DNA of 32,818 nt from Flavobacteriales bacterium. GTDB taxonomy: Bacteria; Bacteroidota; Bacteroidia; Flavobacteriales_D; Sanyastnellaceae. The notes below the pieces were generated by a model. The model was given only the letters and a program-made list of their open reading frames with translations, was not told the origin of the DNA and made no database searches. Below are positions 23,770 through 30,850 of this stretch, piece by piece; within the stretch, counting starts at the first letter, position 1, and every line of letters starts with the position of its first letter. Made by a program: the position numbers and the translations under genes. The stretch is from assembly GCA_015665315.1 (NCBI GenBank), contig JADFAK010000045.1, positions 1 to 32,818 on the forward strand, read 5' to 3'.

Positions 23770-23925
23770 ATGTCTGACGAGGGAGATTCAACAAAGAAAA
23801 AGGGACTAATCAATTGGCTGAAGGGATTTGGGCTTGCTGCTTTTCTTTTTTTTCTGGTGAAAGGCTTGGTTTGGCTGGCCATCTTCTGGTTTGGAACAGA
23901 AGCTATATTTAAGGGCTGCAATTAA
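23770..23925 (+). CDS. Small membrane protein, 51 residues
   Basis: This short gene encodes a charged N-terminus (MSDEGDSTKKKGLINWLKG) followed by a long hydrophobic helix, about residues 20-41 (LAAFLFFLVKGLVWLAIFWF), and ends TEAIFKGCN. The Lys-rich positive side before the helix predicts a cytoplasmic N-terminus. The clean hydrophobic pattern and position make it a likely real gene, of a type of single-pass small proteins common in Flavobacteriia; I cannot name a function. It starts 4 nt after a -7-like element and its stop overlaps the end of the convergent prmC by 4 bp. Confidence 0.7.
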   Translation: MSDEGDSTKKKGLINWLKGFGLAAFLFFLVKGLVWLAIFWFGTEAIFKGCN

Positions 23926-24779
23926 ACCTTGCTTGCGCGCAGCATGCGTTGTTTTCCTTGCATATCGGTGCGGAGCTCTACTTCCTTCATCCCCATTTCA
24001 ACTACCATCTCGTACACCTTTAAGGCATGTTCTTCATGGCATTCGAAGTACAGCTTTCCACCAGAAACAAGTAAGTCATTTGCTACTTCTGTAATCTTTC
24101 GGTAGAACTGCAAGGGATCATTGGTAGTGGTGAACAGTGCGGCATGGGGCTCATGATCAAGCACATTTTGCGGCATCGACTTAGACTCCTCTTGCAAGAT
24201 GTAGGGCGGATTGGAAATAATGCGAGTGAAAGACTTTTTTGGCGGTAGATCGGTTAAGATATCGTGCAGGATGAATTCTACATCCAATTTTAGACCTTGC
24301 CCATTGTCTTTGGCGATTTGGAGGGCTTCATTCTGGCTGTCGCTCGCCAAGACATTTGCCGAAGGCTTATCCTTTTTAATAGCCAATGCGATGCAACCTG
24401 ACCCCGTGCCAATATCCCAAACATCTTCATTTTCCTGGGCTTCACTTAAAAACCAGGCGACCAACTCTTCGGTTTCTGGGCGCGGAATGAGTACTCCCGG
24501 GGCTACTTTTATTTCCAGGTCGTAAAACATCGTGGAGCCGAGAATATATTGCAAAGGTTCACCTCTCAATAATTGATCTCTATGTTTGAATGATGTGACA
24601 ATCTGTGACTCACTTAACTTCTGATCGGCCTTCGTGATTAGGTCGAGTCTTGAAACATTAAATGCTGAGTGCATGACTTGGTAAGCCATACTTTGGGCTT
24701 CACGCTCGCCGTACACGGGGATTAGTTCGGCTTTCAAGAACTCAAAAACAGCAGCGATTGAATTATTAGCCGGGTTCAT
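23922..24779 (-). CDS. prmC: Release factor glutamine methyltransferase PrmC
   Basis: This 285-residue enzyme methylates the glutamine of the GGQ motif in peptide-chain release factors RF1/RF2. It shows EPLQYILG (74-81), IPRPETEELV (98-107), the SAM loop DIGTGSGCIALA (122-133) and the catalytic NPPY (190-193). The frame is open to 24896, but the family starts near MNPANNSIAAVFEFL; the ATG at 24779 overlaps the 3' end of the upstream amylase-like gene by 14 bp, typical of coupled operon genes. It is the last gene of the parE-parC-lipoprotein run and its 3' end meets the 51-aa gene from the other side. Confidence 0.95.
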   Translation of the reverse strand: MNPANNSIAAVFEFLKAELIPVYGEREAQSMAYQVMHSAFNVSRLDLITKADQKLSESQIVTSFKHRDQLLRGEPLQYILGSTMFYDLEIKVAPGVLIPRPETEELVAWFLSEAQENEDVWDIGTGSGCIALAIKKDKPSANVLASDSQNEALQIAKDNGQGLKLDVEFILHDILTDLPPKKSFTRIISNPPYILQEESKSMPQNVLDHEPHAALFTTTNDPLQFYRKITEVANDLLVSGGKLYFECHEEHALKVYEMVVEMGMKEVELRTDMQGKQRMLRASKV

Positions 24780-26097
24780 TGCCGAAACGAGATTTTTGTT
24801 TGATAAATACCCAGTAAGAGAAAGGCTTAAGGACGAGCGTTCCATTGGTATGTTGAGAAAACAACACGGCTTTATCGTCAATCGAAACGTATTCATGCTT
24901 CACAGGATCCGAGAGCTCCACGCGCACAGGTTGCTCGGAACAATTCATCATAGTGAGCACCTCATCCTCTTTATTGAATCTAGAGAAGGCTATGAGGGAC
25001 AAGGACTTAGTGTCTTTCATTTCAATCTTTCCTCCATAGAAACCGTTCCAAAGGACTTCGTTCTTTACTTTGAGTTGGCCCAGCATGGCTACAAGTTTTG
25101 GATCGAGTCCAGACTTAAATTTAGGCACGAAAGTTTGGGTGGAATCTGCGATCCAGTACAGGCCTTCGCATACGGGCAGACTTTTGGAAGTATAGGCGAA
25201 AACTGTTTTTAGTGGCTGAATATTTGCAGCGTGGCTTGAATCAGCTTCAGGTTTCAAATGATGTAATCTGTACGCATTGACGAGAAATTGCTCGATTTCA
25301 TGACGAATCATCTCATCGGATTTCTGCTTGATGAAGTGCAGGGAATTTTCGTTGAATAGGTCCTCAAACGTGTGGTTCCTACTAGCATGGAAAGCAACAC
25401 TGTGGACAGTGGGATCAAAATTATCGGTAAACGCGAGAATGGTCTTGTTTCGCGATTCGAATGAACGAATTAATTCCTCCCAAAATAGTAGAGGTTGTAT
25501 GCTTGAATGACGGCTATAGTACCCATTGAATCCGCAGCTGTCGACCCATTGAGTAATAGCCTTTTTCTGGATCTGTGAAAGTTCGGGTTGCGTGAAAAGT
25601 GGGTAATACGCTAGTTTTCCATCATCTAAGGTGTCGCCGACAAAGCATTCAGGGCATTGAGTCAGCCAGGGATTCTTCTTGCCAAGAGCTTCTACGTCCC
25701 AATTGAATAGAACATGAATACCGTGGCCATTGGCTTCAGATATGATTCTTTTGACGGAGTCTTTTTGGAGGACCATGTAGCTATCAATAGGTTCTAAGCA
25801 ATTCTGCAAACGACTTACTCTAGTAATAGGAAGATCTAGGACCAACAAATCAAATTCAAGATCTTGAATCGATCTCCATATCGCCCTTGAACCGACCAAC
25901 TCAAATCCAGCTAACAGGTCGGCCCACGTTGATGTCACGGCGATGCTCTTCTTGGTCCAAGTCGGATGTTGGATTACCTCCGTTTCAAAAGTCTCGCTCA
26001 CTTGCACGGCGACAGAAGTATGTTCTGGACGTTCACAAGACGTTAGAATGAAGACGAGCAATGTAGCCCACAGGATTCCGGGGTTTAATCGGAGCAT
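24766..26097 (-). CDS. Catalytically degenerate GH13 (alpha-amylase-like) lipoprotein
   Basis: This 443-residue lipoprotein has a signal ending LTSC (Cys21). The rest follows the alpha-amylase (beta/alpha)8 layout: FDLLVLDLPI at 82-91 matches the strand before the ...PI...SPY segment, IISEANGHGIHVLFNWD (118-134) matches the EAH..G..VILD strand, PLFTQPELSQIQKKAITQWV (166-185) matches the NPELR segment, CGFNGYYSRHSS (188-199) matches the DGFR-D nucleophile strand, and LAFTDNFDP (221-229) matches the acid/base LAEWEDP strand. The nucleophile Asp is Arg/His here, the acid/base Glu is missing, and the NH of the first conserved region is lost. The last about 90 residues resemble an amylase C-terminal beta domain. 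It probably binds a glycan or has another surface role. It starts directly at the parC stop and overlaps prmC. Confidence 0.78.
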   Translation of the reverse strand: MLRLNPGILWATLLVFILTSCERPEHTSVAVQVSETFETEVIQHPTWTKKSIAVTSTWADLLAGFELVGSRAIWRSIQDLEFDLLVLDLPITRVSRLQNCLEPIDSYMVLQKDSVKRIISEANGHGIHVLFNWDVEALGKKNPWLTQCPECFVGDTLDDGKLAYYPLFTQPELSQIQKKAITQWVDSCGFNGYYSRHSSIQPLLFWEELIRSFESRNKTILAFTDNFDPTVHSVAFHASRNHTFEDLFNENSLHFIKQKSDEMIRHEIEQFLVNAYRLHHLKPEADSSHAANIQPLKTVFAYTSKSLPVCEGLYWIADSTQTFVPKFKSGLDPKLVAMLGQLKVKNEVLWNGFYGGKIEMKDTKSLSLIAFSRFNKEDEVLTMMNCSEQPVRVELSDPVKHEYVSIDDKAVLFSQHTNGTLVLKPFSYWVFIKQKSRFGNEPG

Positions 26098-28857
26098 CTA
26101 GAAGAGGGTTGGTTGATCGTCAGAACCCTTTTTCTTTTCTTTTTCATCTCCTTTTGGTATCTCGATCTCAAATTCCACGTCTTTGGGATTTTGTTGAACA
26201 TCAGCATCCGAGTTCTCTTCAGAATCAGTTGAATCCTCTTCCTCACTTTCTTCAGACGAATCCTCTTCCTTCTTCTTGGAGCCTTCTATAGCTAGCTTCA
26301 AAGCAGCTTCGGCCTTAGCTTCCAGTTCCTCGTCAGGATCGGCTAGAACAGCGTCTTTCACGGGGAGTGCAGATAATTTATTGCCCAGTGCCTTGAGTCC
26401 TTTAACCGAAATGAATTCGCTTAGATCAATGATCTCGTCTTCTTTGTCGCGCGTTTGTTTGAATTTTCTGTTGTAGACAATTTGCGCCATGGGATGGTGA
26501 TGTGTCGACGCAATTGCCAGGCGAGACTTTTCGTTTTCGGTTATGAAAAGGACAGGCTTGGAAGAAGGTTCGGCCAAGAATCTCTTGACAAACCAAGTTT
26601 CCTTTTCTCCATCATAATATACCACAGAAATAGGCTTTTCGGGCACCCATTTTTCGAGATGAATCATTGTGTCGGCGAAATGCGTGCTGAGGTCGAAACC
26701 AGTCATAACGTATTCACCCGTGGACATAAGGACAATAATCTTGTCATCCGGCCGGAATTCACCAAGGAAAGTTCCCCTTTGGTCGGCATTGAGTCGCCTC
26801 ACCGTTTCATCGAACCATATTTTTCGAGCACCAAGTGTAGAGATTCCCTTTTCCTTGATTTCAATCCGTTTTACCGGGTACTTCGACAGCATATTTCCAC
26901 CTGCTGCCCGTCCTTTAATGGCCAAGTCTGCAAAGTCGAAATCAAACTTGAGCTTCTTGACGCGTTGAATCTGACGTAACAAAACAGTTACAACTTCGGC
27001 CTCACCGTTCGGGTTGGCGCTGAAGTAGAGCACTTCAGACCCTGGAGTCCCCTTGGTTAAATCGTATTCTTTGTCTCGAGTAATTGACGTTACCGCAAAT
27101 CGCTTGACTCGGGTTGCCCCCGATTTTCCATCTCTGAAAATGAGGTTGTAGGTCATGCGCGTATCTCCCTTTTTCCATACGCGGACGTGGATAATGTTTT
27201 TGCCGACAAATGCCTTTTGGGATACTTTGGTGACCATCATTTTTCCATCACGTCGAATGACTATGATGTCATCTATATCGGAGCAATCACTTATGTAGTC
27301 GCCCTCTCCCCTTTTCAGACCTATACCTATAAAACCCTCTTCTAGGTTGGCATGCAGCTTTTCATTTGAAACAGCTACGCGCGCAGCAACGATGGTGTCG
27401 AAGGTGGCGATTTCAGTTTTTCTTTCTCGTCCTTCGCTGTATTTCGCCTTTAGATTTTTGAAATAGTCTATGGCGTAGTCTGTCAAATTCTCCAAATGGA
27501 ACTTGATTTTCTCCAACTCATCTTCCAATGACCTGATCTTCTCATCGGCCTTGAAACCGTCAAATCGAGAGATTCTCTTGATCTTTATTTCCGTGAGTCG
27601 GGCGACATCATCATCGGTTACTTTTCGCAACAAATGTTTGATATGCGGCTTGAGTCCTTTGTGGATCGTGGCTATTATCTCATCCCAGGTCTCACATTCT
27701 TCAATATCGCGGTATACACGCTTTTCTATGAAAATTTTCTCTAGCGACGAAAAGTGCCAAGATTCTTCCAGCTCTCCCTTCCGAATTTCAAGTTCCCACT
27801 TGAGCATGTCTTTGGTTCGTTGGGTAGACCTTGCAAGCAATTCATTGACACCGAGAAATTTCGGGCGATCATCTTCAATCACGCAGGCATTGGGAGCAAT
27901 GGATATTTCACAATCTGAAAATGCGAAGAGTCCGTCGATTGTTTTGTCAGGAGATACGCCTTTCGGCAAATGCACAAGAATCTCGACAAATTCGGCGGTA
28001 TTGTCTTCTACTTTACGGACTTTGATTTTGCCTCTATCATTGGCTTTGAGAATAGATTCAATGAGTGAGGTTGTGGTTGTGTTGTATGGGACTTCTGTAA
28101 TGCACAAAGTACGATCATCGACCTTTTTAATCTTGGCTCGTACTTTGACTCGCCCTCCTCGCAGACCGTCGTTGTAATTGGTGAAATCGGCTTGGCCGCC
28201 CGTTTGAAAGTCAGGGAAAATACTTACCTTCTTCCCTTTGAGGATATCTATGGAGCCGTCGATGAGTTCAATGAAGTTATGCGGGAGGATTTTACAGGCT
28301 AGTCCGACTGCGATACCTTCCACCCCATGTGCTAAAAGTATCGGAAACTTGGCGGGCAGTGTGTCGGGTTCGTCATTTCGTCCGTCATAGGACGCAAGCC
28401 ATTTGGTCGTTTTGGCATTGAATATGACCTCAAGGGCAAACTTGCTCAATTTCACCTCGATATACCTGGGTGCTGCTGCTCGGTCACCGGTCAAAATATT
28501 TCCCCAGTTTCCTTGTGTATCGAGCAGGATTTCCTTTTGTCCCACTTGCACCATGGCATCGCCAATAGCGGCGTCACCGTGTGGGTGGTACTTCATGGTA
28601 TTACCAATTACGTTGGCAACTTTGTGGAAGCGGCCATCGTCAAGTTCTTTGAGCGAGTGAAGGATACGACGTTGCACAGGTTTAAAGCCGTCGTAAACGT
28701 GCGGCACAGCTCTTTCAAGGATAACATACGATGCGTAGTCCAAAAACCACTCATTGTACATTCCGCTTACCTGGATGACATTCTCGAGTTTACTATCCTC
28801 TTGGTTGTCGTCGAAGTCTTCGTCGTGTTCTAGATCATCGTTTATCTCTTCATTCAT
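26098..28857 (-). CDS. parC: DNA topoisomerase IV subunit A (ParC)
   Basis: This 919-residue type IIA topoisomerase A subunit cuts and rejoins the DNA duplex during chromosome decatenation. The active-site Tyr132 follows Arg131 in AAAPRYIEV; the quinolone-determining stretch is GNTMKYHPHGDAAIGDAM (85-102); a long coiled coil lies mid-protein. The GyrA box (QRRGGKG) is absent, so it is topo IV rather than gyrase; a related GRAAGGNML occurs in the C-terminal domain. Both ends are unusual: the first about 25 residues are very acidic, and the last about 90 are a Glu/Ser/Lys-rich, probably disordered tail ending in QPTLF, which resembles the sliding-clamp-binding motif. The stop codon is directly followed by the ATG of the amylase-like gene; its ATG overlaps the stop of a 32-aa ORF. 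Confidence 0.94.
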   Translation of the reverse strand: MNEEINDDLEHDEDFDDNQEDSKLENVIQVSGMYNEWFLDYASYVILERAVPHVYDGFKPVQRRILHSLKELDDGRFHKVANVIGNTMKYHPHGDAAIGDAMVQVGQKEILLDTQGNWGNILTGDRAAAPRYIEVKLSKFALEVIFNAKTTKWLASYDGRNDEPDTLPAKFPILLAHGVEGIAVGLACKILPHNFIELIDGSIDILKGKKVSIFPDFQTGGQADFTNYNDGLRGGRVKVRAKIKKVDDRTLCITEVPYNTTTTSLIESILKANDRGKIKVRKVEDNTAEFVEILVHLPKGVSPDKTIDGLFAFSDCEISIAPNACVIEDDRPKFLGVNELLARSTQRTKDMLKWELEIRKGELEESWHFSSLEKIFIEKRVYRDIEECETWDEIIATIHKGLKPHIKHLLRKVTDDDVARLTEIKIKRISRFDGFKADEKIRSLEDELEKIKFHLENLTDYAIDYFKNLKAKYSEGRERKTEIATFDTIVAARVAVSNEKLHANLEEGFIGIGLKRGEGDYISDCSDIDDIIVIRRDGKMMVTKVSQKAFVGKNIIHVRVWKKGDTRMTYNLIFRDGKSGATRVKRFAVTSITRDKEYDLTKGTPGSEVLYFSANPNGEAEVVTVLLRQIQRVKKLKFDFDFADLAIKGRAAGGNMLSKYPVKRIEIKEKGISTLGARKIWFDETVRRLNADQRGTFLGEFRPDDKIIVLMSTGEYVMTGFDLSTHFADTMIHLEKWVPEKPISVVYYDGEKETWFVKRFLAEPSSKPVLFITENEKSRLAIASTHHHPMAQIVYNRKFKQTRDKEDEIIDLSEFISVKGLKALGNKLSALPVKDAVLADPDEELEAKAEAALKLAIEGSKKKEEDSSEESEEEDSTDSEENSDADVQQNPKDVEFEIEIPKGDEKEKKKGSDDQPTLF

Positions 28858-28987: not shown

Positions 28988-30850
28988 CTACGCAACTTCC
29001 TCTTCCTCAACTCTATCTTTTTCAACTTTCAAATTCTCAATAATAAACTCTTGTCTTTCGGGTGTGTTCTTGCCCATGAAGAAGTCGAGCAATTCCGAGA
29101 TCTGTTCGTCCTTACCGAGCACCACTGGATCGAGTCGGATGCTGTCACCGATAAAAAACTTGAACTCATCGGGCGAGATCTCTCCCAATCCTTTGAAACG
29201 TGTTATTTCTGGTTTGCCCGACAACTTATCCATTGCATCTTGCTTTTCCGTTTGGCTGTAACAGTAATACGTTTCCTTCTTGTTCCTCACGCGAAATAGT
29301 GGGGTTTGCAGCACATACAGATGACCATTTTTCACCAATTCGGGAAAGAATTGCAGGAAGAATGTGATAAGCAGAAGGCGAATGTGCATGCCGTCGACAT
29401 CGGCATCTGTTGCGATAACCACCTTATTGTAGCGCAGATCTTCTAGACCTTCTTCAATATTCAGTGCTGCTTGGAGGAGATTGAATTCTTCATTTTCGTA
29501 GACCACTTTTTTGGTGAGTCCGAAGCAATTCAAGGGTTTTCCTTTCAAGCTAAAAACGGCTTGCGAATTGACGTCTCTGGCCTTTGTAATCGATCCAGAA
29601 GCGGAATCTCCCTCGGTAATGAATATGGTAGAATCAGGCGCCTTGTCATTCTTCGAGTCGCTGTAATGAATGCGACAATCGCGTAATTTCTTGTTGTGCA
29701 CGCTAGCTTTTTTGGCGCGGTCTCGAGCCAGTTTCTTGATTCCAGCCAAGTCTTTTCGCTCATGCTCACTTTGCAAAATCCGCTTTTGAATCTCGGTAGC
29801 TACATCGGTATTCCTGTGCAGGAAATTATCCAACTTGGTTTTGAGGAAATCCAGCACGAAAGTCCGCATAGTAGGCCCGTCCGGACCAACATCTGCCGAA
29901 CCGAGCTTGGTTTTTGTCTGCGATTCAAACACAGGCTCCATCACTTTGACAGCCAAGGCGGCTACAAGTCCAGCGCGGACATCCACGGCGTCATAATCCT
30001 TTCCAAAAAACTCTCGAATCACCTTTACGTAGGCTTCTCGAAATGCTGCTTGATGGGTTCCGCCTTGGGTGGTGTATTGGCCGTTGACGAAGGAATAGTA
30101 ATCTTCTCCGTATGCATTGGTATGCGTAATAGCGACCTCAATGTCCTCTCCGAGCAGGTGAATAACAGGATAGCGCTTGTTCTCGTTGATGTTTGCCTCC
30201 AGCAAGTCTTTTAGTCCGTGCTCAGAATGGTATTTCTGTCCGTTAAAATATATGGTAAGCCCCGTATTCAGGTAGCAATAATTCCAAATCAGTTTTTCGA
30301 CATGTTGGAGTTTGAAATGGTAATCGTTAAAAATGCTTGAGTCAGGGATAAAGGTAGTTTTTGTCCCCTTTCTGCCTGTCGATTCAACAATCTTGGCATC
30401 GTCAATTAATTCCCCCTTCTCAAAAGTAGCGGCTTTGATCTTTCCTTCGCGGACAGATTCAACAAGGAAGTGTGACGACAGGGCATTTACAGCCTTGGTT
30501 CCGACGCCATTTAGTCCGACAGACTTTTTAAATGCGCGTGAATCGTACTTACCACCTGTATTGATTTTGGACACGCAGTCTACCACTTTACCAAGCGGAA
30601 TACCTCTTCCGAAATCACGGACTTTAACCACATTCTCGCGAATATTGATCTCAATGGTTTTTCCGTGCCCCATGACAAACTCATCAATAGAGTTGTCAAG
30701 CACCTCTTTGAGCAATACGTATATGCCGTCATCGTAAGCTGATCCATCGCCAAGCTTTCCGATATACATCCCTGGTCTTAACCGAATATGTTCTTTCCAA
30801 TCCAGTGAACGGATATTGTCTTCCGTATACTGTACAGTTTCCTCACTCAT
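28988..30850 (-). CDS. parE: DNA topoisomerase IV subunit B (ParE)
   Basis: This 620-residue ATPase subunit partners ParC. The GHKL ATP site has Glu49/Asn53 in [21 protein letters not shown] (81-88) and [12 protein letters not shown] (112-123). The transducer carries QTKTKLG (311-317), and the TOPRIM region has EGDSASG (413-419) and DADVDG (482-487), which binds Mg2+ for cleavage. The length and lack of the GyrB insert fit a ParE-type protein. The start [23 protein letters not shown] matches the family. It is the first gene of the leftward run and is preceded by a 407-bp gap without genes. The last residues are acidic (EEEEVA). Confidence 0.95.

Follow-up and report, generated by a model that had tools for sequence, protein, structure and literature searches.

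Is a lipoprotein that resembles an alpha-amylase, and whose gene is wedged between those for topoisomerase IV and a release factor methyltransferase, still an enzyme, and if it is not, how did it come to this place and why has it been kept? The locus lies in a 32,818-nt stretch of a Flavobacteriales contig (JADFAK010000045.1; hereafter the window), where an open reading frame (ORF) of 443 aa occupies positions 24766..26097 of the minus strand. On the basis of the ORF call, GH13 homology, and the state of the catalytic triad, its product is described here as a degenerate GH13 (alpha-amylase family) lipoprotein.

An ORF with GH13 homology between parC and prmC

The ORF starts with an ATG at 26097 and its stop codon ends at 24766 on the minus strand. 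The stop codon of parC (topoisomerase IV subunit A; 26098..28857, minus) begins at 26098, leaving 0 bp between the two genes, and the start of prmC (release factor glutamine methyltransferase; 23922..24779, minus) at 24779 falls inside the ORF and overlaps it by 14 bp. These coordinates confirm the placement reported in the initial annotation, which had been made from the letters of the window alone. Two further in-frame ATGs are available upstream in the window prmC. The neighbour of parC on its far side is parE (topoisomerase IV / gyrase subunit B family; 28988..30850, minus). The transcript that the initial annotation has the ORF share with parC and prmC is a putative one. A scan for promoters and terminators around parC, the ORF, and prmC returned signal at background level, and a SusC/SusD pair, by which a Sus-like locus would be recognized, was absent from the near neighbours (parE, parC, prmC, and a QueD-like gene).

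The protein had also been called a lipoprotein, and this description holds. A type II (lipoprotein) signal peptide was read by eye at 26035..26097 (minus), with the lipobox L-T-S-C at residues 18-21. The column of Cys21 contains Cys in 91 of 103 aligned intact rows (84 from the bacterial family of the window and 19 from outside it), as well as in both dead congeners and in G047. In this nomenclature G000 is the window's own genome, G028 is its only congener among 114 family genomes, and G047 belongs to another genus.

PF00128 gave no match to the window protein up to E = 10, and Pfam returned just sub-threshold matches to C-terminal amylase domains. The best of these was a weak match to Malt_amylase_C (E 7.6e-5, 23.1 bits, under the 27-bit cut-off) over a putative C-terminal beta domain (residues 356-427; 24817..25032, minus). 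A PDB sequence search with the window protein alone returned no GH13 chain, and a taxon search with the same single query found nothing. Since the Pfam matches are only sub-threshold and the PDB search yielded no GH13 chain, annotation by family models would largely miss this ORF.

Relatives of the window protein were found in 71 of the 114 genomes of its bacterial family. The standard GH13 motifs are present in 25 of 29 aligned rows; the four that deviate are those of G000, G028, G047, and, to some extent, G002. The ORF scores 116.4 bits against a model made solely from intact members of the family, and hhalign aligned the dead pair (G000 and G028) to 13 intact proteins over 412 columns with a probability of 99.95% (E 6.6e-38); both results support the proposed derivation from GH13. 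A profile of the three degenerate proteins (the dead pair and that of G047) retrieved alpha-amylase 4gkl as its top match in the PDB (E 5e-9); when the profile was limited to the dead pair, alpha-amylases appeared only with E values of 0.04 to 0.7. The best solved relatives of an intact orthologue are the alpha-amylase structures 4gkl and 3dhu (E about 1e-56), which differ from the window protein in that both are deposited as alpha-amylases. A taxon search with the dead pair gave the congener, the MAG 'Flavobacteriales bacterium isolate HKST-UBA114', as its sole match.

From this homology, a (beta/alpha)8 barrel with a C-terminal beta domain would be expected. AlphaFold2, run on a two-sequence alignment of the window protein and relative L155, returned a pLDDT of 36.5 and a pTM of 0.31. 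Chance similarity and assembly artefact were both rejected as explanations, since the gene recurs at the corresponding position in a second genome. A second weak match in the window's genome (C18, E 0.011), a 351-aa ORF that by eye is not GH13-like, was dropped.

Catalytic residues in the window protein and its orthologues

The strands GYYSRHSS and LAFTDNFDP, which the initial annotation had assigned to the nucleophile and acid/base positions of a dead enzyme, are present as quoted and lie on those strands, with the catalytic residues lost. GYYSRHSS aligns with GFRCDVA of the intact proteins, placing Arg196 at the position of the nucleophile Asp (strand residues 193-200, YYSRHSSI; 25498..25521, minus). 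LAFTDNFDP aligns with MLAEAEN and has Asp225 in place of the acid/base Glu; this strand and the stretch following it span residues 221-240 (LAFTDNFDPTVHSVAFHASR; 25378..25437, minus). The third Asp of the triad is replaced by Ala, as is the His of region I, and Tyr takes the place of the Arg that stands two positions ahead of the nucleophile; Arg196 is followed by His. Asn/His of region I, this Arg, and His of region IV are all lost.

The family contains 94 orthologues, a count that leaves out L109-L112 (best matches resembling GH13 paralogues, 72-105 bits). The triad could be scored in 91 of them, the contig-edge fragments G037, G013, and G110 being left out, and is Asp/Glu/Asp in 85. It is likewise DED in 19 of 19 out-of-family homologues, hand-picked among the matches listed. 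With 85/91 orthologues intact, loss of the triad is therefore a local event and not a family trait. The six altered orthologues read RDA (G000), HDP (G028), RDE (G047), DDD (G002 and G102), and DAD (G112). Complete loss is confined to the first three genomes, of which G028 encodes a protein 40% identical to the window protein, and all three also lack the Arg that precedes the nucleophile as well as the region I and region IV His. Of the 122 columns conserved to at least 90% in the 103 intact rows, 24 are kept by both dead congeners. An intact lipoprotein GH13 beside prmC (L005, in G048) illustrates the other state: it shares with the window protein the prmC neighbour, a similar length, a signal peptide, and a full-length alignment, but its Asp/Glu/Asp triad is intact and it matches PF00128 at 110 bits, where the window copy has no match.

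The initial annotation had set orthologues with an intact triad against its reading of a dead enzyme. Such orthologues are indeed the rule, but the window copy itself is still without a triad. It had also suggested looking for the same substitutions in related genomes, and the congener is triad-less as well, with different replacements at the nucleophile and stabiliser. By descent the window protein is a GH13 protein, and judged by its residues (Arg, Asp, Ala) it is catalytically dead.

Intermediate states were also observed among the orthologues. L009 (G002, a genome 99% complete) is a possible half-dead orthologue with Arg to Ser and acid/base Glu to Asp. L129 (G102) has acid/base Glu to Asp and region I His to Tyr, and its genome has one other GH13. 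In L097 (G112) the acid/base Glu is replaced by Ala, and the one other GH13 of that genome is a short fragment.

Gene order, other GH13 genes, and the number of losses

To account for what it took to be a surface lipoprotein at this position, the initial annotation had proposed either historical accident or a link to growth rate, and had pointed to synteny in related genomes as a check. Synteny is conserved: prmC lies within the fetched flank of 69 of the 94 family GH13 loci, several of the misses being short flanks, and parE, parC, GH13, and prmC are consecutive in several genera. Outside the family, a tblastn search with the window's PrmC (E 1e-10) placed prmC near GH13 in 0 of 19 hand-picked loci from other families of the order (flanks about 1-3 kb). 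Since prmC flanks 69/94 loci within the family and 0/19 outside it, the most plausible view of the neighbourhood is that the family inherited this gene order and that it is no new wiring. The pseudoenzyme is in turn best read, on alignment and synteny, as a vertically inherited orthologue that decayed in place. Historical accident was therefore right insofar as the gene order is inherited, several of these GH13 genes also standing directly after parC; the growth-rate link found no support.

The gap between GH13 and prmC measures 304-727 bp at 51 of 70 measurable loci. Three gaps that were read (L005, L004, and L009) hold like genes, and the copy tested, that of L005, is methylglyoxal synthase. 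Further loci listed for this gene are L048 (9749-10108) and L238 (1543-1890), and in G071, which has no GH13 there, it lies between parC and prmC. G000, G028, and G047 have no room for it between GH13 and prmC. In G047, a 430-aa ORF on the opposite strand (L037, 7165-8457) separates parC from the dead GH13.

PF00128 matches occur in 98 of the 114 family genomes. Among the 16 without them, a clear relative of the window protein is kept only in G000, G028, and G047; two of the 13 others gave marginal 16-bit matches only, and some of the 13 are just 62-67% complete. No other GH13 was detectable in G000, G028, or G047, nor a second GH13 in G002, which is to say none recognizable, as PF00128 is blind to strongly decayed members. 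The orthologue is altered in 4/4 genomes without another GH13 (these same four) and in 2/87 genomes with at least one other, counts of genomes and not of independent events. Judged from the numbers of matches, another GH13 accompanies the orthologue in all 85 intact cases. Another GH13 was credited at three or more PF00128 matches, no orthologue having given more than two pieces among the matches listed; for the low-count genomes G065, G099, G001, G024, G054, and G075 it was confirmed by match positions.

Other markers of alpha-glucan metabolism added little to this picture. PF08323 (glycogen/starch synthase marker) is present in 105 of 114 genomes and does not discriminate, and none of the 114 genomes gave a match to glycogen phosphorylase (PF00343) or GH77 (PF02446) at E 1e-5; any loss of alpha-glucan metabolism is therefore gauged from the GH13 genes alone. 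The open frames listed for the GT5-type protein in the 105 genomes are mostly near 280-300 aa.

On a parC tree of 26 rows, the altered state needs five changes. Set against GH13 loss, it yields two supported independent pairs, with an average of 1.9 in the expected direction and none opposite, which is not significant. In a GH13 tree the three fully dead proteins fall together (92/91), on end branches of 1.4, 2.3, and 3.8, and the stem leading to the two congeners is 9.5 changes per column long. A single origin of the dead state was considered and rejected, as the parC tree places G047 away from the window's genus and rejects one clade (p-AU 0.001) and long-branch attraction is likely in the GH13 tree. 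G047 shares its genus code with two genomes whose copies are intact. At least two independent losses are the better reading.

Apparent selection on the dead protein and possible explanations for its retention

When G000 is compared with G028, the dead gene (pS 0.755) and each of seven neighbours show saturation at synonymous sites. The dead gene has a pN of 0.41 and 41% identity, prmC a pN of 0.38 and 47% identity, and the non-synonymous divergence of parC is 0.11. The dead genus type consists of two sequences, both from draft genomes, and because these are synonymously saturated against each other dN/dS is not exactly measurable. Simulation under a constraint that kept only the frame open, at 1.36 substitutions per site (a value worked out by hand from differences at 32 of 51 fourfold sites), gave an expected identity of 13% (maximum of 200 runs, 17%) against the 41% observed. 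Without any constraint about 20 stops would be expected, and none is observed. By these comparisons the protein seems to be still under selection. PrmC, at 47% against 83% for parC and 85% for parE, was seen to diverge almost as fast as the dead amylase.

Of the 169 residues identical in the dead pair, 74 occur in fewer than 10% of intact rows, and another five occupy columns absent from most intact rows. The rare shared residues are densest in the 20-residue bin 221-240, where they account for 11 of 20 positions. Two of the remainder form a CxxC (Cys148 and Cys151; 25645..25656, minus) that is common to the two dead congeners and unusual in intact rows and in G047. These new residues could in part be relics of the stem or changes that keep the fold. 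The dead pair is 40% identical where parC is 83% identical, and six pairs at parC 80-85% that exclude the dead genomes are 65-82% identical; such fast divergence would also fit relaxed constraint. Since no clear relative was found, at the threshold of the search, in the 13 other genomes lacking PF00128, some of which are incomplete, some related bacteria seem able to do without the protein.

On balance we lean towards a pseudoenzyme, an in-place descendant of an ancestral lipoprotein GH13 that may have been retained to serve in the envelope without catalysis, probably by binding. Loss of the other GH13 genes would have ended selection for catalysis, the active site would then have decayed, and the exported protein would have been retained for a role that needs no catalysis. 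This role would most likely be that of an envelope-anchored binding or scaffold protein acting through the remodelled mouth of the barrel, where the shared new residues are densest.

The strongest rival, although we think it unlikely, is that the protein is a passenger with no function of its own, kept by translational coupling to prmC and still foldable as it is always made and exported. With the prmC start lying within the ORF, any frameshift or stop that arose in the dead gene would curtail the synthesis of PrmC. Speaking for this rival, 7 of the 70 measurable loci have a GH13 frame that runs into prmC, and five of these seven are altered (G000, -14; G028, -4; G047, -1; G102, -8; G112, -8), with one altered (G002, 367 bp) and one unscorable (G037) among the 63 non-overlapping loci. 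However, two overlapping orthologues are intact (G107 and G094), and the association amounts to three supported independent pairs with unmeasured spacings entered as non-overlapping, which is not significant. Spacing also hinges on the prmC start chosen; G111, entered as non-overlapping (+4), has an alternative start at -8. Coupling failed to prevent loss in G101, the sister of G112 on the parC tree, which shows no GH13 at this locus and in which parC is 83 bp from prmC, and a constraint on the open frame only falls well short of the observed identity (about 13% predicted, not 41%). A non-catalytic function and retention by coupling can both be partly true.

That the gene is a pseudogene in slow decay, with catalysis lost first, the remainder drifting, and no current function, appears distinctly improbable. 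Its accelerated divergence, the graded states seen in G002 and G102 (DDD) and G112 (DAD), and the want of a clear relative in 13 other PF00128-less genomes, some of them incomplete, are consistent with such decay, but neither of two genomes at saturated synonymous divergence has a stop or frameshift where some 20 stops are expected, the lipobox is kept, and identity is close to that of prmC. We give very little weight to residual action on a glycosidic bond through an aberrant active site. BmaN1, a bacterial GH13 with replaced catalytic residues, is reported to be active on starch with Lys standing in for its nucleophile (a basic residue, as in the window protein) and His for its stabiliser (PMC5347038). 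However, BmaN1 is described as keeping the acid/base Glu and having an Asp beside the replaced nucleophile (PMC5347038), whereas the window protein has all three triad residues changed and a His after Arg196, and the nucleophile and stabiliser replacements of its congener are different ones. The BmaN1 group is named GH13_45 in one abstract, and the BmaN1 report also lists a few bacterial GH13 proteins, forming a small group, in which the entire triad is irregularly changed (PMC5347038).

The pseudoenzyme reading has a parallel in the 4F2hc ectodomain (SLC3A2), a membrane-anchored GH13 homologue without all three catalytic residues, for which no activity was detected and in which glycan arrays revealed no carbohydrate binding (PMC8537225). 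This is a likeness of state and not of membership: 4F2hc is the heavy chain of vertebrate amino-acid transporters and has a transmembrane segment, unlike the window protein. Among the top listings of an open-access literature search, mainly titles and the starts of abstracts, none described a bacterial GH13 pseudoenzyme whose function is known. A broader and doubtful extension is that loss of alpha-glucan metabolism repeatedly turns the prmC-linked amylase into a new envelope lipoprotein, which in the window genus would have gained a conserved site (FTDNxDPxVHSVAFHASR and the CxxC) for non-catalytic binding or scaffolding and would be kept in step with prmC by overlapping translation.

Earlier reports have already described a vertebrate GH13 homologue that is catalytically dead (4F2hc, PMC8537225) and listed bacterial GH13 proteins whose triads are irregular (PMC5347038). 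The family of the window offers a natural series in one conserved neighbourhood, from live enzymes (85/91) through single losses (G002, G102, and G112) to full pseudoenzymes (G000, G028, and G047). With such a series one can ask which roles other than catalysis a secreted enzyme performs, and whether a gene is lost later when its translation is coupled to that of an important gene.
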